From Bacteroidetes bacterium GWF2_33_38 (GTDB lineage Bacteria > Bacteroidota > Bacteroidia > Bacteroidales > GWF2-33-38), in contig MEOF01000067.1 in the NCBI GenBank assembly GCA_001769505.1, positions 1 through 50,335 of the forward strand: a stretch of DNA of 50,335 nt, read 5' to 3'. The notes beneath the pieces were generated by a model, which made no database searches, had not been told where the DNA came from, and saw nothing but the letters and a program-made list of their open reading frames with translations. Positions within the stretch are counted from its first letter, which is position 1. The number at the start of each line of letters is the position of its first letter. Shown one piece after another: positions 34,499-46,900 of the stretch. The translations under genes were made by a program, and so were the position numbers.

Positions 34499-34678
34499 TC
34501 AGGTAACGTAGTTCGGAATACTATATGATAGTTTGTCTTGCTTCTTTTTAATTAATGGCATTTTTTCAAATGAAACATGCTGTTCTATGCAAATAATCCC
34601 AGATTTGTTATTCTGCTTAAAATCTGCCTGAACAATCTTTTGAAACTCCTTCCCTCTTTTTAACTGATATGGTTCCAT
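34499..34678 (-). CDS. Small protein, 59 residues, overlapping the end of the ParB-like gene
   Basis: An ATG at 34678 opens a frame (MEPYQLKRGKEFQKIVQADF...) that overlaps the last 19 bases of the ParB-like gene in another frame and ends SYSIPNYVT at 34501-34499. The composition is protein-like: charged, with hydrophobic SGIICIEQHV in the middle. Overlap of stop and start is typical of coupled genes. I recognise no family. It completes the RES / GNHR-protein / small-protein string and could be an antidote or adaptor, but that is a guess. Confidence 0.6.
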   Translation of the reverse strand: MEPYQLKRGKEFQKIVQADFKQNNKSGIICIEQHVSFEKMPLIKKKQDKLSYSIPNYVT

Positions 34679-35469
34679 TTAAGTGTTTTATCAATATGTA
34701 CAGCATCAGCATGTAAACCATGCTCATCTTTAATGTCTATTAATCGTTTATGCTGATTTATTATTTTAGTTAATACAGGATTTGCAAGATCCGTGTGTTT
34801 ATTTATTTCAATTTTTGATTTATTTCCACCGAAAAAGCTTCGCCATTTTGATGTGTTTTCTGCATTATCATAGCTGTCAATAAAATCTCTTATCTGCTCA
34901 TTCTTGACAGTAATAATAACATTATATAATAGAAATTTCCATAAATTATTGGATAAATTGATGGGGACAATAGTGCGTTTTTTCAACTCATGCCAGCAAG
35001 TGTAATATTTATCATTAAACTCACATTCTGAAACTTGAGCATTAGTAATATCAATATCTAAGAACTTGGATAAGCAGATTCTATGATTTCCTTCACCACT
35101 TATTATATAAAAATCACCATATTTGGACACTTTCTTTTCTTGTTTTTGTGTATTCATAAATTGCTGTAACATCTCATTTTTTGAGCCTACATTCGAATCA
35201 AACCTATCTAATCCACCTAACATCTCAATCCACATAAGGTTTATATAATTTGAATGGGTTGTTCCGACTATGGATTTTGCTGAAATACTTTCTACTTCAA
35301 TACTCTTGTAAGAGTCTGTATAGAAACTGAAATTATCAATATTGGTCTTATCAATGGTTTTGTCAAAAAACCACTTTTGATATGTAAAGTCTGGTTTTAT
35401 CTGTTTCAAACGTTTAAAGCCATTCTGTAAACAAATGTTTTCTACTCTACTAAAACTTAAATCAATCAT
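34660..35469 (-). CDS. ParB/sulfiredoxin-like GNHR-motif protein, 269 residues
   Basis: A 269-residue soluble protein. YIISGEGNHRICLSKFLDID (residues 121-140) matches the G-x-x-HR signature of the ParB/sulfiredoxin-like fold, followed by the strand AQVSECEF; the preceding SIVGTTH, W-x-E and FDSN elements fit the first half of that fold. Members bind or hydrolyse nucleotides (CTP in ParB) or cut nucleic acid. Residues 150-269 are helical, ending in HGLHADAVHIDKTL. It starts three bases after the RES gene and overlaps the 59-residue gene, so all three should be one transcript. The fold call rests on a single motif and spacing. Confidence 0.6.
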   Translation of the reverse strand: MIDLSFSRVENICLQNGFKRLKQIKPDFTYQKWFFDKTIDKTNIDNFSFYTDSYKSIEVESISAKSIVGTTHSNYINLMWIEMLGGLDRFDSNVGSKNEMLQQFMNTQKQEKKVSKYGDFYIISGEGNHRICLSKFLDIDITNAQVSECEFNDKYYTCWHELKKRTIVPINLSNNLWKFLLYNVIITVKNEQIRDFIDSYDNAENTSKWRSFFGGNKSKIEINKHTDLANPVLTKIINQHKRLIDIKDEHGLHADAVHIDKTLKWNHIS

Positions 35470-35472
35470 ATG

Positions 35473-36273
35473 TTACCAAATTATATCTCCGTTTAGCTCT
35501 ATTCTTTTAGCTTTTGCCGTACAAAGTACTTGATATTTGTTTCTTTCAATTTTTTTCTCAATCAAAATTGTCCAGCATTCTTTTGGAACGTAAAAATTGT
35601 CATATACCTCTGGTTTTATTACTATGTTTGAGGTATTTTTATCTGCTGCAATACTTGGAAAAACAAGCCCTTCAATTTTTTCTCCTTTCAAAAAATTACT
35701 TCCAATCACAGCTGTTAGCTTATATTTATCCTCTTCTCCTTGTTTCACAGGCTGAGTAAATTGATCTATCAAAAAGTCATCAATAAGTTGATTCTTCAGA
35801 ATGTTTTGCTCATTTCCAAGTTTTCTACGAATTGCAATATCATCACTGATTTTTCCTTTTGATTTCCATGCGGTATGTCTCATTCCTAATTCCATCATCG
35901 TTAAGTAATCCTTATTTAATCCACTTAATAGAACTGTAAACTCATCACCTTCTTTAGGTTGATTTTCTATAATTGCTGTACTTTCATTGGCAGAACCATA
36001 AAAAACACTATTGAATGGATAATTAACTCTTCCATAGGTTTTTATAAATTCAGGCTTTGGATATATTAATTTTTCAATGTTCTCGAACCTTTTTGTTTCT
36101 TTTTTCCTAGCTCTATATACTAATTTTGCAGGGACTTTCATTAGTCTTGTATTGTAACCATTCATTAAAAAGCTAATCATTTTCTCCAATTCCTTAATTT
36201 CAATTTTAGCTAAATCAATACTCCCCAACTCTTTAATAATTTGATTAATATTGTTTACTGTGTTCTTTTCCAT
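35473..36273 (-). CDS. RES-domain protein (putative NAD-degrading effector)
   Basis: A 266-residue protein. After an N-terminal helical stretch (1-45), the RES pattern appears: KLVYRAR (Arg54), YGRVNYPFNSVFYGSANESTAIIEN (Arg82, Tyr92, Glu97/Glu103; quoted in parts, residues 80-104) and GLVFPS (Ser207) with SNIVIKPE after it. RES domains are best known as NAD-consuming toxins paired with an Xre/MbcA-type antitoxin. Here no Xre-type gene is adjacent; instead a ParB-like gene follows after three bases. It is also longer than simple RES toxins (about 150-200 residues). The transcript probably comes from the large gene 172 bases upstream or a promoter in that gap. Confidence 0.72.
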   Translation of the reverse strand: MEKNTVNNINQIIKELGSIDLAKIEIKELEKMISFLMNGYNTRLMKVPAKLVYRARKKETKRFENIEKLIYPKPEFIKTYGRVNYPFNSVFYGSANESTAIIENQPKEGDEFTVLLSGLNKDYLTMMELGMRHTAWKSKGKISDDIAIRRKLGNEQNILKNQLIDDFLIDQFTQPVKQGEEDKYKLTAVIGSNFLKGEKIEGLVFPSIAADKNTSNIVIKPEVYDNFYVPKECWTILIEKKIERNKYQVLCTAKAKRIELNGDIIW

Positions 36274-36445: not shown

Positions 36446-39400
36446 TTATGATATTTCATTATTACTTGGAAAAATATTGCCTATTATTTGTTTCCATTCA
36501 TTAGATGAAATCATTTCTTTTAGTAATTCTGGAGTTTGTGCCCTTTCCAAAATATATTTAATAAAGAAGTTTAAACAATCATTTGCTAAATTGTTTAAGT
36601 AATCCCTATCTGTATCATAATCCATGTCTTCCAGTAATGGACTTTTAAATAGAAAATTTCCTGAGATAAAGGCTTCTGATAAAATAGTTAATTGATTATC
36701 TTCTATCTTATAGATTTGAGTTTCTGCTCGATTTTCTTTCCATGAATTCACAAATTTCCTTTGGTCATAAGGATTAGCATTTAATTTAATATAATATTCT
36801 TCATCACCAATGTCAAAAGAGATTCCAAAATTACGCATAGTTTCAATGTAGCTCTTTAACATAAGAAAAGCCCTAGTGTTATCAAGTTGTGCAAAGAAAT
36901 TGAACTCACCCTCTTTTTTTAATCGTGCCATTAACGTAATCCAATTTAAGAAAGATTCATTATATGAATCAATTGAAATTGAACCTATTCTATATAAGGC
37001 TTCATTTACTTCAATAGTTAATACTTCAGATGAAGTATTCTGCCAAGTATCAAGCCCAATTAATAAATAAGATTGAAGAAGCACCTTGTTATCCTCAACA
37101 ATTTTCGAAGGTGCTTTTAACACAAAATCAATTGCTAAAAGAAAATATGAGTTGTATGAATCTATTGAAGGATTCCTATTTGAAAGGATACTCAAAATCT
37201 CTAAACAGATAATTTCATTAGTATCTAAATTATTAACAATAATTCTGAGAATTGAGGCATAAGCGTAAGTATCCCGTCTATCTTTCCAACTATTTAGTAG
37301 TTCATCCCATTTTTGTTTTTCAACTTTATTCTTTATTTTTATTTCAGTAGCCTGAACAAAGCATGATAATTCTCTTTTAAGTTTTTCATTTTTTATAGAA
37401 CTCAACCGACAGTTCAGCTTTTCAAATATCCGAGTCTGCATATCAACAGCTTGTACGCTTTTGGCAATATTTAAAAAATTAATTAGCACTCCAGAGAAAT
37501 CATCATCGTTAATTTTATTTATTATTTCATCAAAGTATGTTAATCCGCTCTTATCAAAAAGTAAAACATTTAAATATGGTAAATAATCTTCTACAGTACT
37601 ATCAAACTTTATACACGATAAAAAAGCAAATTCTGCTTTAATTTTCATACCATAATCGCTTATATAGATGCGGTTAAATGCTTGCTTAAAATATACAGAT
37701 GATAAATCAATCGAACTACTATATTTTTTAGCTAATAATAAATATCCTATTATGCTTAGAAAACTATTAGATGATTTCAGAATACTTAGATTATCATTTA
37801 AATCATCACTTTCGATATCATTCCCGACATTAATACATGAATCTTTAAAATATGCTCCTTTTAAAATACTAAATTCTTTTAAAGGTTTCATGTCTAAAAA
37901 ATCCCACAACATGCTATCTAAATAAAATTGCGAATGTATGTCATTAATAACATTTTGGCTTATATCTCCATTTTTGATACTCAAAGTATCAATTTTTAAA
38001 TCAAAAATAATATTTGCTCTTTCTATTAAATTAGTATTAATAATCAATTCCGGTATTTCTTTAATAAGTCTGACAAGAATACTTATACAATTTAAGCAAG
38101 ATTCTCTTAATAATTTTAATTCAACAAGAATGGTTTGATCATCAACTTTATCTGTTTTATGGTAAAGTTCTTGCTTTTTCTCTGAATAATTTAAAATGCA
38201 TTCCAGTGTTTTTAGTTCATTAATACAAACATTTGTCAAAAAGAAACATTTAATATGCTGATTTGTTGGCATTGTTCCAATTTCCAGCCTTATAACATCG
38301 ACGTAAGCAATGAATAATTCTGACCAAGACACTAATTCAGAATTTATTAAAGCATGACTTATTTTGTTTGCCGTATAATTCTCAATAAGTAAATTGGAAC
38401 AAAATGTAGATTTGGATAATGATATTAATTCAATTATACTCAAGTTACGTGTATTTGAATCTGAAATTCTCTTTTCAAAGTTTTTTGAAATACTTTTTAT
38501 TGTTTCACGGCTCTTCAAAACCAATAATGGAATGTTGAGTATAGATGGAGAACCAGACACTGGATAATATGTAAGGCAAAATAAGGTACTAACAATTTTA
38601 CCATAATTATAAATAGAACTATTGATAAATGTTTCACGAATAGACTGTCCATCTTCTTTTTTAGGGGTAGGATATATTTTAAGTGATGAATTTAGCTCGA
38701 AAAAAACCTGCCATAATCCGTTATGATAAGATTCATTAATATTTAATGTATTAAAATTATGACTAAATTGATATAATTTTGATAAGGTTGATAATATATT
38801 TTTGCTATTCAAAATTGCAAATAAATCCCATCCAATTATAATAAATTTTTTAACTAATTCTTCATTATGCTTTATATAATCTACATAAAAATCAATACAT
38901 CTAATAAATGCTTTTTCCCCCTCCTGTACCAACATCAAATTAGTGCATTTTTCAATTGTATATAGGTATATATTAATAATTTCAACTACAATACTTTCTT
39001 TCAAAGTCAAATCGGATATTTCAATCAAATTGGATTCGCAAAGGTGATAATAAAGTCGTCTAAGCAAAGTTTTTCTTAATGGGACTTTTTGAAGTTTGTC
39101 GTACCAAAACAAAGTCCAAAATAAATGACCAATTGCTGGATTAAAGTACCCCAAATTCTCATTGTTTGATGTTAAAATATCCTTTGCTTCTACAGTAATT
39201 CTGAAACTACTGCCATCATATACTTCCTCATAAATCACAGGAATATTGCTGATTTTTATGAAGCAAATACGGAACTCTTCCATAGATAAATTTGTACCTT
39301 TTAATATTAATTCTAATATTCTCGCTCTTAACTTATATACTCGACCTTTGCTTTTTTTCAAGGATTTTAATAAGAACTCTTTGTTGAAATACAATATATT

Positions 39401-40549
39401 TGGCAATGATGATAATGACAATAAAAACAATAAATCGTAAGCACTATATTTGTCCCTTGAATTTTGTTCATCTTTTTGAAATTTCAGCAATATCTGTTTT
39501 AACTGTTTAAGGTTTTCAATATTTGGCTCACAACAGATCTGCTTAAGGGTAGTATATTTATCTGCTAATTGTGATAAATTCAAGAATTCAATAAGTTTAC
39601 TTTTTTCATTCAAAGTAATACTCTGCAATTCAAATTTCAGAAATTGTTCTATAGGATTCCTTAAAGAATAGTTTTCGCCAAGTAGGTGATTACCATAGTA
39701 TTCTAAAGTATAGTTGCTAAAAACAACCCAACATTCTTTATAAAAAATATCATCATGCTTTTCAAGGAGATATTGATTTAACACTCTTTTTGTAGTATTA
39801 TCCAAACCATCAATATTATCCACTATAATAAAACGTGGACTTGGGCTTTGCCGAAAAGCTTGTACTAAATGTTTAATAAATTCATTATATTCTTCAGACC
39901 CATTACCATTCTCAAAAAGTATTTCGTGTTTATGTATTTCTTCTACAAGCTTGTGTATTGCCTCTCTTCTATCGACAACAATCCACTTTGAGAATATTGG
40001 TCTTAATACTGCTACTGAAATAAACGTCAATAACGCACTGATTCCTATTATATAATTTTTAAAATTGTCATTGAAAATATTACTAAAATACACAGGTAAA
40101 ATAACACAAATTAAGAGGCAAAAAAATATTAATATCCAAAATTTAATTTCAAGTAATTTAAATGAATTTGTAAGTCCACTTTTTTTAGCTAATTTGATTA
40201 ATCTATTTTTGCCTATAATTCTAATGATTTCTGGCAACCCTTGATTTGCACTAATCCCATTAAAACAATTGATATTCCAAGTTGGAAACAATGATTTGAA
40301 ATTAAGTCGTAACATTTCGGCAGTCCACGACATTCCATCTCCTTCTTTAACAAAGATTTTAATTCCTAAAAATGACTTATGAGTGTTTCTTATTAACTCC
40401 GAAACCAATTTATTTACTTTCGTTTCAATTCTTTCCGAAACTTCATTGCTTTCAGATAATTTTATTTTACGATCAATGATATTATCTTTATTTAATATCT
40501 TTATTAAGTTCTTTTCAGAAACAAAGCTTGGAACCTCTTGCTTACTCAT
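36446..40549 (-). CDS. KAP-like membrane P-loop NTPase with degenerate Walker A, 1367 residues
   Basis: A 1367-residue protein. Around residues 62-80 lies a P-loop-like segment, IKIFVKEGDGMSWTAEML, in which the GxGK(S/T) lysine is replaced by Met73. Two membrane helices follow (about 137-155 and 165-184), and then a Walker B-like strand RFIIVDNIDGLD (239-250) and a sensor-like WVVFSN (about 274-279). Membrane helices placed between Walker A and Walker B are the hallmark of KAP NTPases, so I call it KAP-like. The remaining thousand residues are helical repeats without Cys/His motifs, perhaps a sensing superhelix as in STAND proteins. It starts ten bases after the SEC-C nuclease gene, so the two are a translational pair. 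The lost lysine suggests nucleotide binding without normal hydrolysis, or a scaffold. Confidence 0.68.
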   Translation of the reverse strand: MSKQEVPSFVSEKNLIKILNKDNIIDRKIKLSESNEVSERIETKVNKLVSELIRNTHKSFLGIKIFVKEGDGMSWTAEMLRLNFKSLFPTWNINCFNGISANQGLPEIIRIIGKNRLIKLAKKSGLTNSFKLLEIKFWILIFFCLLICVILPVYFSNIFNDNFKNYIIGISALLTFISVAVLRPIFSKWIVVDRREAIHKLVEEIHKHEILFENGNGSEEYNEFIKHLVQAFRQSPSPRFIIVDNIDGLDNTTKRVLNQYLLEKHDDIFYKECWVVFSNYTLEYYGNHLLGENYSLRNPIEQFLKFELQSITLNEKSKLIEFLNLSQLADKYTTLKQICCEPNIENLKQLKQILLKFQKDEQNSRDKYSAYDLLFLLSLSSLPNILYFNKEFLLKSLKKSKGRVYKLRARILELILKGTNLSMEEFRICFIKISNIPVIYEEVYDGSSFRITVEAKDILTSNNENLGYFNPAIGHLFWTLFWYDKLQKVPLRKTLLRRLYYHLCESNLIEISDLTLKESIVVEIINIYLYTIEKCTNLMLVQEGEKAFIRCIDFYVDYIKHNEELVKKFIIIGWDLFAILNSKNILSTLSKLYQFSHNFNTLNINESYHNGLWQVFFELNSSLKIYPTPKKEDGQSIRETFINSSIYNYGKIVSTLFCLTYYPVSGSPSILNIPLLVLKSRETIKSISKNFEKRISDSNTRNLSIIELISLSKSTFCSNLLIENYTANKISHALINSELVSWSELFIAYVDVIRLEIGTMPTNQHIKCFFLTNVCINELKTLECILNYSEKKQELYHKTDKVDDQTILVELKLLRESCLNCISILVRLIKEIPELIINTNLIERANIIFDLKIDTLSIKNGDISQNVINDIHSQFYLDSMLWDFLDMKPLKEFSILKGAYFKDSCINVGNDIESDDLNDNLSILKSSNSFLSIIGYLLLAKKYSSSIDLSSVYFKQAFNRIYISDYGMKIKAEFAFLSCIKFDSTVEDYLPYLNVLLFDKSGLTYFDEIINKINDDDFSGVLINFLNIAKSVQAVDMQTRIFEKLNCRLSSIKNEKLKRELSCFVQATEIKIKNKVEKQKWDELLNSWKDRRDTYAYASILRIIVNNLDTNEIICLEILSILSNRNPSIDSYNSYFLLAIDFVLKAPSKIVEDNKVLLQSYLLIGLDTWQNTSSEVLTIEVNEALYRIGSISIDSYNESFLNWITLMARLKKEGEFNFFAQLDNTRAFLMLKSYIETMRNFGISFDIGDEEYYIKLNANPYDQRKFVNSWKENRAETQIYKIEDNQLTILSEAFISGNFLFKSPLLEDMDYDTDRDYLNNLANDCLNFFIKYILERAQTPELLKEMISSNEWKQIIGNIFPSNNEIS

Positions 40550-40559
40550 AAATTTACAA

Positions 40560-43500
40560 TTAATTTAATATGTTTATCCCTTGCCTTTTCAACGAAACAA
40601 AAGATATGACAGGCAATTTAATCTTTTCCTTTGCCAAATAATAAAGTGGAATTTCCTCTGAGGTTAAAATCAAAGATTTTACCTCAAATTCTTTAGCTGT
40701 GCTACAAAAACAAGAAAGTAATTCAATATGATGTTTTAACCACAAATCCCTTTTTACATGCTTCTCAATAAGCCCTTCGTTTCCATCTCTTCCTAAATAA
40801 TTGTCAAGTTCTGTTTTCATTTCATGCATTACTCTTGCACTGACTGTATTTTTACATTCAATAGAATAAAACACCCTCTTTTTTTCATCTATTGCTAAAA
40901 TATCAATGTCTCCATACACTCCATCTTCCTCTTTTCCACTGAGGTCTTTTGGTTTGACTTCATAAGGAATAACCTTAAATATCTTTTGATTTTCCAACCA
41001 ATTACAAACTTCATCTCTGAATTCTTTCCCTTTTTCGTTATTTCTTTTTTTCAGAAAAGCTTCAAGTTTTCCTCCTCCTTTAGCTTTTAATCTCCCACTA
41101 TATAAAAGAGATAGCAGATTATCTTTACTCGAAAGAACATATCTATAACTCCATAATATAGTTGTTTCTTCTTTATGTTCAATTTTTACTAGAGGTCTTC
41201 GAATATATGATAATGCTCGATTATATCTCCAAGGATAAATATCTGTTTTAGAAAATCCATCTGGAGCTTTGTCTATTGCTTTTCTTTCTGTTAGAGACAA
41301 AAGCGTTAGTCCAGCAAGTAATACGTCATTATTAAAATCAGGGAAGTATGTTTTTATTTTTTCAACAATATCTATTTCATTCATCACAGTCACGGATTCT
41401 TCATTTTCTATAGAAATCCGAACCAAACAGCCTTTCAATTTTAAAATCCATGTTAAACTAATTCCCCATTCCTGCTCAAATGCTTCATCAATTTCTTTTG
41501 TTTCTTCTGTTTCTCCTGCATTAATAACACTTTCATGTAATGAAAAATTCTCATCAAATCTCTGCTGATATTTAAATATTTCGCCGGCTACTCTTGCTTC
41601 TGACCATGTCTCTATGTGGTTATAATAGAAGCTTTTGTCAACTCCTATTCTCCCAGAAGGTAACAAGCCCATTTCTGGATCATCCAACCCTAAATCCATT
41701 GAATCGGATAATATTCCCCAATTAATAACCTCTACCATAAGAGCAACAAGTCTGTCAACATCATCCATATTTGGACATTTTGATTCAAAACTAGGTTGAG
41801 CCGCAATAAACTCAATTAAGCATCTTAGTGAAAGATTTGTTTCTACGAGTTCTTTATTGCTTTTCTGTAATTTTATAACTTCTGTAGGAAAATCACTAAA
41901 ACAAGATATTTTTGCTGGAATAAGAAGCTCTGAAAACTCTCTTTGGTAAGTACACCTCTCTTGCAATTTAATTAACCACTTTAATAGCTCAACTGAATCA
42001 TACTGCTTTAGTTCATGTAAAATTTCAGTTATAAAATTACCAACTATCTTATTACACAACCTTATCTTATCATCTTTTGATTTTATCTTTTCTGGGACAG
42101 TTTGGTTTAAGGAGTCGACAATTCCGTTAAGTATTGATGATGTCTCGCATTCCTGAATTTTTCTTAATGGAGACAACCATCTATTATCAAGGATTAAATT
42201 TTTTGAAGAATCATAATACAAAATCATTTTAGCACTATCTGGTTTGAGATAAGAATCTACTATGTTTGTAATTTCAGTTTCTTCTAATATCGGAAACTCG
42301 TTCTTATAACTGACTAACAAAGACAAACCTTTAAGAATATTTTTCATAATAAGTTTTTCTGCTTCATTTGTAGGCTTTAACAAAAAAGCAGTTAAATCAG
42401 GAACCTTGAGATAAATTTTATTGTTTTCAACCCGAACATCAAAATGTAAATTAACTGAAGTTTCTAATTCCCTATTTAAAGCTGATTTTGTTTTTAATAA
42501 GTCATTATCAAGGATTAAAATAAACTCCAATGATTCAGATTTAATTTCCTCAATATATTTACTCAGTTCCAAACGCATTTTATACAGCCAGAAAATTGCG
42601 GATTCACAAAAGAAGTGTATCACGTTTTTTTCTTCAGGCTTTGTAGCTTGATTGTTTTTTACCCAAACTGGAATGGAAAAGCATTCAATCAATAGATTAC
42701 ATTCACGTGATTTTTCTCTTTCTTTATAAATAGGTGCGTATTCTCGATATTTTATTACAGGAACAGGTATGAGCCCATGTTGTTCTGTGTATTGCAATGT
42801 TGAATGCTCGTCTCTTTGTTTAATGATTTCTCTTTCATAATTTGAAGAACTACCTATAGCAAAATTCATTAAATCAGGCACGGCATAATCAGAATGCAGT
42901 AATGACTGATTATTGTTTTTATAGGCAAAATAGGTGTCTAAAAATCCTCCCGGAGCTATTATCTGGGTTCTATTTCTCGTTTTACTCTGTATTCTTGCAA
43001 ATTTCCATAGGGTTAAAGGATCAAGTTCATTCGAAAACACAAGGCTCTCAAATTCACAATGTTTTAATGCCAAAACCTGATTTTCGTTTATAGCTCCTCC
43101 ATGAAAAAAGTAAAAATCATATCCTGATTCTCCTATGATGTATAATGTAAAATACTTATATAGGGCATTCTGATTCACTTTCTCCAAAAACTCTAAGACT
43201 TCATTATTTCGGTTGTCGTAAAAATTAATTTCGCCAGATTGAGAAGAAAATAAATCCACACTTTCTTGAGATTGACCCGATTTAACATAGCAAACATAGG
43301 CTAACTTGTCATTATCAATACGAAATACCGATTCTTTGATGTTTAATTTTGTTTCAGGAAGGGTGATATCCGTCAATTTCCATCCGGTTTCTTCTAATTG
43401 TAAATTCAAGATTCTCCATTGATGCGTATAATAGTAGTTCATTAACTCCTTATGGCATCCGAAATCTTTTGAGGTTTTAGTAATAAATTCTGTCAGACAA

Positions 43501-44342
43501 TTAACGGAAGCCGTTGGTAATGCAAAAATATACTCATCATTATTTTTATAGAGAGGCTTTGTTAATAATGGGTTTTTGTCAGGATCATCATTTTTGAAAT
43601 TTTCATCATTTAAGTCTACTACAAATTTTTCTATTACCTTTAAATCAACTTGATAATGAATTGCAATTTTCTGCAAATGAGAGGTTTGAAATGACACTAT
43701 ATCCTTGAATCTTGATAAATCACCTTCTTTTGGTATCTTTATTTCAGAATGTTCATATTCTTCATATATATATCTTTTCAATCCGGCATTCATAGCCATT
43801 GACTCACACATGGCAAGTACTATCGTGGCAGCATCCCTAATTGTCTTTTTATATGAATCAGGCAATAAGTTCTCCATTGTAAAAATAGCTTCTAAATAGC
43901 TATTTAGAATCCGTGTTCCATTATGATTTAAACCCGGAAATACAGTAAAATTGCCAAAAAACCATATAATATTTTCTGTAAAGAATGAGCTTACAGGGTC
44001 TTCTAAATAATGGCTTTTGAAATTATTCATGAAGAAATCTTGTAAATTTTTGTAATCAATTTCAGGCTTATCTAAAATTTCTTGTAGTACTAAATCCCTC
44101 GCTAATATTTCAAATCTTACATTTTTTCCATGATTTAAAGGAAGTAATTGTGCCGCAGCAATTGTTTTAAGCAAATCAAATTTATCATAAGAACTAACAA
44201 ACTTCTTGTATTCAGAAACCGTCACTTTTTCTTCTTTTTCAGATACGAAATTACTATACTTTAAATTACAACAGTATTTATTCTTTTTTCCACTTCCGCA
44301 TGGACAAGGAGCATTTCTTCCGATTTTATTACTATTAGACAT
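40560..44342 (-). CDS. Large SEC-C zinc-finger protein with C-terminal PD-(D/E)XK nuclease domain, 1260 residues
   Basis: A 1260-residue protein. Residues 8-26 are a SEC-C zinc motif (NAPCPCGSGKKNKYCC; Cys13, Cys15, Cys24, Cys25). A long central part of about 1000 residues has no motif I can name. Residues about 1115-1200 form a restriction-endonuclease-like fold: GDIDILAID (Asp1145/Asp1147), then YSIECKN (Glu1162, Lys1164), the D...ExK catalytic set. Such a nuclease would cut DNA in the presence of Mg. It lies ten bases upstream of the KAP-like gene and 18 bases after a 40-residue gene. Joined with a membrane NTPase it suggests a sensor/effector complex. Motifs are clear; the substrate and trigger are unknown. 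Confidence 0.75.
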   Translation of the reverse strand: MSNSNKIGRNAPCPCGSGKKNKYCCNLKYSNFVSEKEEKVTVSEYKKFVSSYDKFDLLKTIAAAQLLPLNHGKNVRFEILARDLVLQEILDKPEIDYKNLQDFFMNNFKSHYLEDPVSSFFTENIIWFFGNFTVFPGLNHNGTRILNSYLEAIFTMENLLPDSYKKTIRDAATIVLAMCESMAMNAGLKRYIYEEYEHSEIKIPKEGDLSRFKDIVSFQTSHLQKIAIHYQVDLKVIEKFVVDLNDENFKNDDPDKNPLLTKPLYKNNDEYIFALPTASVNCLTEFITKTSKDFGCHKELMNYYYTHQWRILNLQLEETGWKLTDITLPETKLNIKESVFRIDNDKLAYVCYVKSGQSQESVDLFSSQSGEINFYDNRNNEVLEFLEKVNQNALYKYFTLYIIGESGYDFYFFHGGAINENQVLALKHCEFESLVFSNELDPLTLWKFARIQSKTRNRTQIIAPGGFLDTYFAYKNNNQSLLHSDYAVPDLMNFAIGSSSNYEREIIKQRDEHSTLQYTEQHGLIPVPVIKYREYAPIYKEREKSRECNLLIECFSIPVWVKNNQATKPEEKNVIHFFCESAIFWLYKMRLELSKYIEEIKSESLEFILILDNDLLKTKSALNRELETSVNLHFDVRVENNKIYLKVPDLTAFLLKPTNEAEKLIMKNILKGLSLLVSYKNEFPILEETEITNIVDSYLKPDSAKMILYYDSSKNLILDNRWLSPLRKIQECETSSILNGIVDSLNQTVPEKIKSKDDKIRLCNKIVGNFITEILHELKQYDSVELLKWLIKLQERCTYQREFSELLIPAKISCFSDFPTEVIKLQKSNKELVETNLSLRCLIEFIAAQPSFESKCPNMDDVDRLVALMVEVINWGILSDSMDLGLDDPEMGLLPSGRIGVDKSFYYNHIETWSEARVAGEIFKYQQRFDENFSLHESVINAGETEETKEIDEAFEQEWGISLTWILKLKGCLVRISIENEESVTVMNEIDIVEKIKTYFPDFNNDVLLAGLTLLSLTERKAIDKAPDGFSKTDIYPWRYNRALSYIRRPLVKIEHKEETTILWSYRYVLSSKDNLLSLLYSGRLKAKGGGKLEAFLKKRNNEKGKEFRDEVCNWLENQKIFKVIPYEVKPKDLSGKEEDGVYGDIDILAIDEKKRVFYSIECKNTVSARVMHEMKTELDNYLGRDGNEGLIEKHVKRDLWLKHHIELLSCFCSTAKEFEVKSLILTSEEIPLYYLAKEKIKLPVISFVSLKRQGINILN

Positions 44343-44513: not shown

Positions 44514-45188
44514 CTATATTTTTATTAATCCTTCTTTTAAAAGATATGTTTTAATGTCCATTATATCATTTTTATCAACATAATCGATAAGGCAGTACTT
44601 CTTACCTAATCCATTAAAAGAAGCCCCAACAAACAGACCTCTTTTCCCACAAAGCCAAAGTCTATCATGAAATAAGTCTGAAAACTTTGTCTCAAGCTTC
44701 AATTGACTTTTTACATTTAAAAAACTATCATATATTGCTTTTTCAGTGTGTTTTTTGTACTTCTTTTTACTTGTGACAAAAGTAACTTTTTGCAACTTTT
44801 TCAAATGCTTACTGAATATTTGTGTTATAAAATCAGAATATTTCATATTTTCATTATCATCTGTAAACATGTAATAATCAATAATAATTAAATGTTCTGA
44901 TGAAATAATGCGATCCAGAAATTTTTTAAATACTTCAATAATATCTTTTGCCCTGTTATATGGAGTTCCTGTTGCTTCATATTTTATTTCAGGTGTAAGA
45001 ATTCTTGTTTGACCTTTCTCAACTAAGTCAGTCTCGATATCCTTACTGTCATCCTCGAATGGTAATATAGTATAGCTAAGTCCATTAATTGATTTTAGAA
45101 CTTTAAAAAACTCTGTTTGTGGATCCAAATACTTATCTGTATATGATTCACATTTAATATCAATCTGCAATTTTAAAGATGTCATCAT
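44514..45188 (-). CDS. PLD-like protein (MIT C-terminal type), 224 residues
   Basis: A 224-residue soluble protein. The C-terminal half has the layout of the phospholipase-D-like domain found at the end of MITD1-type proteins and in bacterial defence loci: HLIIIDYYMF (about 99-108), FVTSKKKYKK, FHDRLWLCGKRG (His174-Asp175-Arg176), GLFVGASFNGLGKK (about 184-197) and DYVDKNDIMDIKTYL. A single His-containing motif means that a nuclease or lipase would need a dimer or be inactive. Residues 1-90 are a separate beta-rich domain. It starts 32 bases after the CoiA-like gene and is probably co-transcribed. A binding role is as likely as catalysis. Confidence 0.65.
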   Translation of the reverse strand: MMTSLKLQIDIKCESYTDKYLDPQTEFFKVLKSINGLSYTILPFEDDSKDIETDLVEKGQTRILTPEIKYEATGTPYNRAKDIIEVFKKFLDRIISSEHLIIIDYYMFTDDNENMKYSDFITQIFSKHLKKLQKVTFVTSKKKYKKHTEKAIYDSFLNVKSQLKLETKFSDLFHDRLWLCGKRGLFVGASFNGLGKKYCLIDYVDKNDIMDIKTYLLKEGLIKI

Positions 45189-45220: not shown

Positions 45221-46900
45221 TTACCTTGAAAAAGCCAACTCTGGATACAAATCCCTGAAAACTCCTTCAAAATCATATTCCTGCTCTGGCATATCCAAAT
45301 AAAACTGAGTGATTTTCTTTTTAAAAGTTCCTTTTCCGTCAAGTTGTATCAGAATTTTCCAAAGTCCAGAACTTTTAAATGCAATTTCGATATATTCCCA
45401 ATGCTTACTATAATGCTGGATTGCATTATTTGCAAATGCAATCCATTCATTCGGTTTATAGCTAAATCCCATAATAGTTGCATGTTTAGCTGATTCAATA
45501 ATAAAAAGTAATTTTGAATATTTATAAGCAATATCAATCATGCTTTTGTCTGATAAACTCATACAAAGCTTATATAAAATCAAATCATTATTATTTTCTC
45601 CGCTTAAATCAGGTATTGATACTGCTAATGCCTCATCTTCAGTAATTAACTGATAACCTCTTTTTAACAATCCTTTTATTGGAAGATATTTTCCTATTGA
45701 TTTATTCAAATATATCTCTTGAAAAGCGGTTTTCCCTTCAAAGTCTCTCTCATTCACATCTATATCAATTTCGTTGCAATTCAAAACAAAATCAATAAAT
45801 GCAATATCTTCCTGCGTTGCAGTCTTTATCCATTGATTTAAAGCAGGTGTTTTTGATTTGAGATTACTCTTGATGTTCAACATCGAATTAAACACATCTT
45901 TCTCAAATTCATTTAATTCTGAAAGAAAGAGTATGACATCTCCAAAATACTGTGATTTTCTTTCACGTAAAATTTTAATTTCCTGAATTATTCTCTTTGA
46001 TTTATATTTTGCAGCACTTAATCGGTCTTCCTCTATTTTTATTTTTTCGACTTCTTTGATTTGTTTTGCATTTTGCCATTGTTCTTTTTCCTTCAGGGTT
46101 TTATTATCACCAAAATTATAGTAGTATATTTGATAGCATTCAGAATCAAACTTTAACTCATGAAAAGGGATCGATTTATTCAACCATTTAGTTAGAAGGC
46201 TATTATCATCTGTAAGAAAAGGGAATTTATAAGTGCAATTAAGACTGAATTCTTTGGTGTTTTCATCAAGATTGAAGAAATTTTCATACTTCGTCAAGTA
46301 TTTAATATCTCTCTCTAATTGAGCTTGTTTATGGACATCGAAATTATCAAGTATCCAAATAAGAAACATTTTGTTTTGTCTATAAAAATCATACCGACTT
46401 AAAATATAGCGTAAAGATAAATCAGATAATTGTATTTCGAAGACTAATTCCTTATCCAGATATTTGCAGTAAACATCTGGTCTTCTTCTTTCATTATTTT
46501 TTATAATTACCTTATTGTCAATTGAAATTGAAGCATTATCAACTCCTTTAACATTTTGAAGAAGTGATGCAATCTTATTCTTCAGTTTTTTATGTCTTTC
46601 ACTTTCTTTTGCTACAAGAATTTTGTTATGCTGATCGACTTCTTGTGGAGAGAGATTTCCGTCTTTTAAAATACAAAAATCAGCTTTCGGTTGATGTTTA
46701 AAATGGAGTCTATCATGTTTACTTGTGGAAACATGTAGCCTTTGCTCACATTCACAGCAATATAATTCAACTTTATCCTCATGAAATTGACGTCGAATTA
46801 AAAAAGCATCTTTTTTATTATAAAAAATTTCATCAGCATTAAGAATTTCACCAGAAATCTTATCAAATGCAATTTTTATAAGTCGTTCATAATTTCCCAT
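45221..46900 (-). CDS. CoiA/DUF6035-like nuclease with zinc finger, 559 residues
   Basis: A 559-residue protein and first gene of the leftward cluster. A zinc-finger-like part (YCCECEQRLHV, then HFKHQP and FC; Cys48-51, His66-69, Cys76) is followed by a helix ESERHKKLKNKI, then RRPDV (Asp142) and VFEIQLSD (Glu155, Gln157), the nuclease core of CoiA-like and DUF6035 proteins, with RYDFYRQNKMFLIWIL after it. CoiA itself helps process DNA in competence, but DUF6035 homologues are found in accessory regions of Bacteroidota. Residues about 375-400 (NEIDIDVNERDFEGKTAFQE) resemble an ankyrin-type turn. A coiled coil lies at about 280-310. No promoter box is clear upstream; the hairpin at 47090-47115 lies in the shared divergent region. 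Confidence 0.7.
   Translation of the reverse strand: MGNYERLIKIAFDKISGEILNADEIFYNKKDAFLIRRQFHEDKVELYCCECEQRLHVSTSKHDRLHFKHQPKADFCILKDGNLSPQEVDQHNKILVAKESERHKKLKNKIASLLQNVKGVDNASISIDNKVIIKNNERRRPDVYCKYLDKELVFEIQLSDLSLRYILSRYDFYRQNKMFLIWILDNFDVHKQAQLERDIKYLTKYENFFNLDENTKEFSLNCTYKFPFLTDDNSLLTKWLNKSIPFHELKFDSECYQIYYYNFGDNKTLKEKEQWQNAKQIKEVEKIKIEEDRLSAAKYKSKRIIQEIKILRERKSQYFGDVILFLSELNEFEKDVFNSMLNIKSNLKSKTPALNQWIKTATQEDIAFIDFVLNCNEIDIDVNERDFEGKTAFQEIYLNKSIGKYLPIKGLLKRGYQLITEDEALAVSIPDLSGENNNDLILYKLCMSLSDKSMIDIAYKYSKLLFIIESAKHATIMGFSYKPNEWIAFANNAIQHYSKHWEYIEIAFKSSGLWKILIQLDGKGTFKKKITQFYLDMPEQEYDFEGVFRDLYPELAFSR

Follow-up and report, generated by a model that had tools for sequence, protein, structure and literature searches.

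A 50,335-nucleotide stretch of Bacteroidetes bacterium GWF2_33_38 (contig MEOF01000067.1; hereafter the window) carries on its minus strand a gene for a 1367-residue protein, which follows a gene for a probable nuclease resembling Upx. Our analysis suggests that this protein is a membrane-anchored derivative of the KAP NTPases, probably hydrolysis-dead, within a defence-type gene cluster. The likely ancestor of its N-terminal third is a KAP branch whose P-loop domain contains two membrane helices and whose Walker B motif is of the DN type. Judged from the aligned motifs, the protein has kept the G-x-G-x-S backbone and the D-N-x-D residues and has lost the P-loop lysine, the first glycine and the Walker B arginine. 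Taken as a whole, a KAP-derived, membrane-bound protein incapable of hydrolysis is a reading that we hold to be somewhat more probable than its negation.

The open reading frame runs uninterrupted for 1367 codons. The base composition predicts stops at about 9% of codons (log10 P of no stop, about -57), and the codon usage of the gene resembles that of the adjacent genes. By stop statistics and codon usage, the reading frame is genuine.

Walker motifs and membrane segments

An earlier note on this DNA had described the segment EGDGMSW as a Walker A site whose lysine is replaced by Met73. The segment is indeed there: residues 67-75 read V67 K68 E69 G70 D71 G72 M73 S74 W75, with Met73 encoded by ATG (window 40331-40333), and neither GK[ST] nor a relaxed P-loop pattern occurs anywhere in the protein. 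Where KAP proteins (PF07693) have GxxxxGK[ST], it has VKEGDGMS. The Walker B strand FIIVDNIDGLD, also pointed out in that note, is present as well, as a hydrophobic strand with the D[DN]xD residues (FIIVDNID from residue 240), followed by Gly248 at the position of the arginine in the DN[MIL]DR motif of the KAP branch.

Between the two motifs lie two hydrophobic segments, which agrees with the two membrane helices that the note had placed there. Among the eight best non-overlapping 19-residue windows, only those starting at residues 137 (2.84) and 167 (2.10) have a hydropathy above 1.5. The KAP branch has this same layout, with its two membrane helices placed between the Walker motifs. The long helical-repeat tail proposed in the same note, by contrast, found no support, with neutral Chou-Fasman averages and no library model over cut-off in the tail.

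We aligned the protein with 17 remote KAP relatives, in two alignments of 8 and 9 sequences counted with the window left out. Val67, Met73 and Gly248 stand opposite Gly, Lys and Arg in all 17 relatives, which in turn share G70, G72, S74, D244, N245 and D247 with the protein. Met73 falls on the lysine column and Asp244 on the Walker B aspartate column in four MAFFT modes. In a wider KAP set, GK[ST] is found in every one of the matches listed that covers the P-loop; for L177 and L182 the automatic pattern had picked another site and the true P-loop was identified in the wider-profile alignment, while the P-loop lies outside the C-terminal pieces of L186 and L187. The 17 relatives, with lysine at the Met73 position throughout, look like an active separate group rather than orthologues, and their lysines are an ambiguous sign of the local mutation that the note had named as a refutation. 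At the strength of remote homology, profiles, alignments and the 17 lysines support the claim that Met73 replaces the Walker A lysine. Replacing this lysine with methionine normally abolishes hydrolysis.

Evidence for and against KAP descent

A KAP-profile search of 80 relatives led to a branch in which a pair of membrane helices separates Walker A from a Walker B motif of the form DN[MIL]DR. Its members are mostly 1070-1170 residues long, and several plasmid records annotate them as ‘P-loop NTPase fold protein’. All five proteins scanned (four branch members and a KAP protein of Cohnella, locus L062) exceed the Pfam KAP cut-off. The branch genes occur on plasmids with varied neighbours and in viral contigs. 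Two of the viral contigs, L179 and L182, carry such genes next to phage portal genes. P2-like phages are said to bear hotspots of anti-phage genes (PMC9122126).

A hidden Markov model (HMM) of eight branch members scores the N-terminus of the 1367-residue protein at 15.7 bits, and 200 shuffled sequences reach at most 6.9. The same model, run on 709 proteins taken from the window and from loci L033-L107, reported 438 of them and placed the protein second (E 0.001), behind a true KAP protein. A profile comparison with the same eight members gave a score of 44.4 and a probability of 69 over 149 columns, covering residues 122-276. Here the protein ranks second of 473, behind the genuine KAP protein of L062, in a set of proteins of at least 300 residues compared by their first 480 residues; the other 13 matches listed span merely 18-60 columns in the Walker A region of the profile. 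These comparisons support, at remote-homology strength, the KAP arrangement of Walker A site, two helices and Walker B that the note had proposed. KAP descent is likely, though not proven.

Several observations weigh against this reading. A 21-member KAP HMM performs less well and ranks the protein third. The best domain scores 12.0 bits, a value exceeded by one of 2000 shuffles among the matches listed; in full score, six of these 2000 lie above the N-terminal piece and one ties with it. The protein has six of nine invariant KAP residues, a count equalled or exceeded by 4 of 256 other proteins, all four with GK[ST] in those columns, and by 2 of 150 local shuffles. The 17 aligned relatives are mutually related and hence not 17 independent witnesses. 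The tail is unmatched by the KAP-branch C-terminal profile (rank 282 of 475 reported), and Pfam, NCBIfam, PADLOC and PHROGs contain no KAP match to the protein. Both structure models are of such low confidence that they are unusable. AlphaFold2 gave a mean predicted local distance difference test (pLDDT) score of 43.2 for residues 1-372 from the single sequence and 43.4 for residues 1-440 with nine KAP relatives from viral contigs, both too low to count as evidence. With the same reservation, the first model runs from strand 62-67 through a loop to helix 77-87 and strand 92-97, then over two long helices to strands 239-242 and 273-276, an order compatible with a P-loop domain into which helices are inserted; the second lacks strands 62-67 and 273-276. 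With the E limit at 1, profile searches of the PDB with the KAP alignments yielded 15 and 42 sequences, mostly short P-loop matches.

The protein may work like a KAP NTPase yet cannot be filed as one, because it lies below the Pfam cut-off (no KAP match up to E 1) and lacks both the Walker A motif and the Walker B arginine of the family. The sub-cut-off Pfam matches are PBDC1 (E 0.005, residues 1068-1107), CLZ (E 0.043), AAA_25 (E 0.38, residues 194-247) and AAA_7 (E 0.42), and the lone one from NCBIfam is murE (E 0.15). PADLOC and PHROGs gave zero matches of any kind.

No homologue of the 1367-residue protein was accepted from any of the collections searched. A search of genome contigs by exact short peptides, which reaches close relatives only, gave 16 pattern-matching stretches, none confirmed. 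The protein found only itself among 99 relatives; itself and one match to residues 4-65 (E 2.5e-4) among 395 genomes of the phylum; and itself and 11 others (E 0.004-0.6) among 395 genomes of the class at E up to 1. These three genome sets overlap, and their counts are not additive. By reading, the phylum match is a methyltransferase-like frame, taken as chance with no further test; the open reading frames of four of the 11 class matches were read and all four judged unrelated. Plasmids and phages gave zero matches, viral contigs no confirmed homologue and solved structures no match. A YobI-type parentage (PF20693) was also considered and set aside, as profile scans, which included no comparison with YobI sequences, found nothing above cut-off in the 80 relatives and nothing in the protein.

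The upstream Upx-like gene and the alternatives

The earlier note had placed a nuclease gene ten bases upstream; the gap indeed measures 10 bases, and the 1260-residue protein encoded there matches nuclease families. It matches Upx in PADLOC (E 1.2e-43) and NCBIfam (NF042954, E 2.2e-52), with similarity over a long range and the PD-(D/E)XK residues, although its 177.5 bits lie far below the equivalog cut-off of 1900. In its GDID...ECK signature, G1144, I1146, D1147, E1162, C1163 and K1164 are invariant in six of six aligned proteins. Its best solved chain is 9wuf, named ‘Restriction endonuclease’ (E 2.9e-23, residues 657-1241). The N-terminal SEC-C motif scores 19.8 bits against a Pfam cut-off of 20.4, and the SEC-C pattern is found at the N-terminus of 11 of 55 full-length Upx-like open reading frames from 70 loci. 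These 11 lie in L038, L039, L041-L044, L046, L052-L054 and L057, loci whose titles all name Bacteroidota. The Upx-like nuclease family is real and defence-linked. Two loci each hold two Upx-like genes on the same strand, 5 bases apart in L048:6432-13810 and about 830 apart in L057:5430-13756.

The pairing of the two genes is not conserved within the loci searched, which also speaks against a coupled system. A tblastn search with the 1367-residue protein against the 70 Upx-like loci, some of which span few kilobases and leave neighbours partly unseen, and further loci had no match at E up to 1 and a single one (E 7.7) at E up to 10. The 8-member KAP profile finds a KAP gene in just one of 75 loci (L033-L107), namely in Cohnella L062, where it precedes the Upx-like gene by 277 bases in the same orientation. 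By size and position of open reading frames, the neighbours of Upx-like genes vary between loci. On a Deinococcus plasmid (L034:3702-11648), an Avs2-like gene (PADLOC E 1.5e-94) lies about 400 bases before the Upx-like gene; its product is dissimilar to the 1367-residue protein (best E 1.8).

We propose a tentative model for the action of the 1367-residue protein. It would most likely reside at the cytoplasmic membrane and use its C-terminal part of about 900 residues as a binding surface. The gene would be co-transcribed with the Upx-like nuclease gene, given the 10-base gap, and the two hydrophobic segments would tether the product to the membrane. Since the motif is degenerate, hydrolysis is presumably lost, and the pseudo-NTPase domain would act as a switch or scaffold without turnover. 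In a last, speculative and rather doubtful step, phage infection might lead the protein to free or position the nuclease. Such nuclease coupling is a guess that finds no support in the conservation data, and independent action is at least as likely. If the model is true, a KAP membrane domain is able to serve as a non-hydrolysing scaffold, and the protein and the nuclease form a testable pair.

The closest alternative keeps the KAP-derived pseudo-NTPase and makes it an independent single-gene element, which came to lie behind the Upx-like gene by island shuffling and is reached by readthrough. We give this nearly an even chance; it overlaps with the favoured reading, which it shares minus the nuclease coupling. 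The changing neighbours of Upx-like genes, the lack of a homologue of the 1367-residue protein beside them in the loci searched, and the plasmid, viral and portal-gene settings of the KAP branch are all consistent with it, whereas the 10-base spacing in the same direction suggests a single transcript, and in the Cohnella locus a KAP gene precedes an Upx-like gene in the same orientation. A further reading denies KAP descent altogether, so that EGDGMSW and DNID would have arisen by chance in an unrelated two-helix membrane protein. The missing family match, the weak residue statistics, the poorer wider profile and the low-confidence models would all fit, but the second rank of 473, with a 149-column match that covers both membrane helices and runs on into the Walker B strand, makes this unlikely.

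Two more alternatives concern the site itself. Met73 could stem from an error in sequencing or from a recent mutation, with the enzyme otherwise active, as ATG is one base away from the lysine codon AAG and no second copy was found for comparison. However, a lone base error or single recent mutation is disfavoured because Val67 and Gly248 depart from invariant positions too, and the 4.1-kb frame is intact; we regard this as highly improbable. Alternatively, the site may still bind or hydrolyse nucleotide with Lys68 replacing the missing lysine at position 73. Lys68 lies five residues ahead of Met73, which we take to be the spacing of the signature lysine in the deviant Walker A motif. This motif is of the MinD/ParA type, and kinases with a relocated lysine are a further comparison. 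In favour of this reading, neither KAP alignment (8 and 9 sequences) has a lysine in this column. Yet one relative, L177, has an arginine there alongside its intact lysine, so that a basic residue need not be a replacement; the protein has also lost its first glycine and Walker B arginine, Trp75 follows the site, and a single lysine in a lysine-rich protein is weak evidence. We consider this substitution improbable. Even less probable is its extension to a two-gene anti-phage system, in which a ‘with-no-lysine’ style P-loop, with the lysine moved to 68, would make the protein the KAP-type membrane trigger of the SEC-C/Upx-like nuclease.

Several other genes lie nearby on the minus strand (features of the two central genes are collected in Table 1). 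At window 45221-46900 lies a gene for a DUF7830, DUF6035 and DUF7829 protein with a CoiA nuclease-like match, a second nuclease-type gene of the cluster. At 44514-45188 a 224-residue protein is encoded, which has no Pfam match up to E 1 and ends in FHDRLWLCGKRGLFVGASFNGLGKKY; this C-terminus presumably recalls the phospholipase-D-like domain of MITD1-type proteins. On the other side, a RES-domain protein (34660-36273, E 4.4e-6) is followed 3 bases on by a 269-residue protein with GEGNHR, perhaps a toxin with a ParB-like partner.

Table 1 Features of the 1367-residue protein gene and the adjoining Upx-like gene (window coordinates)
Feature	Position	Strand	Remark
1367-residue protein	36446..40549	-	KAP-like membrane pseudo-NTPase candidate; central finding
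C-terminal tail, residues 461-1367 and stop	36446..39169	-	no family match above cut-off
Walker B-like FIIVDNIDGLD, residues 240-250	39800..39832	-	D-N-x-D retained; family Arg replaced by Gly248
Second hydrophobic (membrane) segment, residues 167-185	39995..40051	-	hydropathy
First hydrophobic (membrane) segment, residues 137-155	40085..40141	-	hydropathy
Degenerate Walker A EGDGMSW, residues 69-75	40325..40345	-	V67-K-E-G-D-G-M73-S74; Lys replaced by Met, first Gly by Val
Lys68 codon	40346..40348	-	presumed position of the deviant Walker A signature lysine
Spacer, nuclease gene stop codon to 1367-residue gene start	40550..40559	-	10 bases
1260-residue Upx-like protein	40560..44342	-	N-terminal SEC-C motif, C-terminal PD-(D/E)XK signature
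GDID...ECK signature, Upx-like residues 1144-1164	40851..40913	-	
SEC-C motif, Upx-like residues 9-25	44268..44318	-	pattern CPCGSGKKNKYCC

Comparison with known systems

The upstream protein resembles Upx (NF042954) over nearly its whole length, its residues 49-1236 matching profile positions 26-1223, and differs from it in the low score relative to the equivalog cut-off and in the extra N-terminal SEC-C motif. The 1367-residue protein shares with the KAP branch (PF07693) the order of a Walker A site, two membrane helices and a D-N-x-D Walker B strand, and a long C-terminal region. It differs in having no lysine, first glycine or Walker B arginine, no Pfam KAP match and a tail not detectably related to that of the branch.

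Among defence proteins, the anti-phage protein Tmn is a KAP protein with two transmembrane domains, and its defence mechanism is termed unexplored (PMC11846954). By description and models, with no Tmn sequence compared directly, the 1367-residue protein has the same KAP-like layout and two membrane segments, but it lacks the P-loop lysine. At E up to 1 it has no match among the 5027 PADLOC models, in which we count that of Tmn. KAP NTPases have also been found in other defence neighbourhoods, as a further report states (PMC10853773). A narrow look at parts of the literature, the founding KAP paper lying outside it, met no description of a KAP protein without the Walker A lysine. A precedent of another kind is iSTAND, described as the catalytically inactive STAND NTPases of MoxR-vWA conflict systems (PMC7159879). 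The likeness lies in an inactive P-loop NTPase as a component of a conflict system; the difference is that iSTAND belongs to STAND rather than KAP and has other partners.

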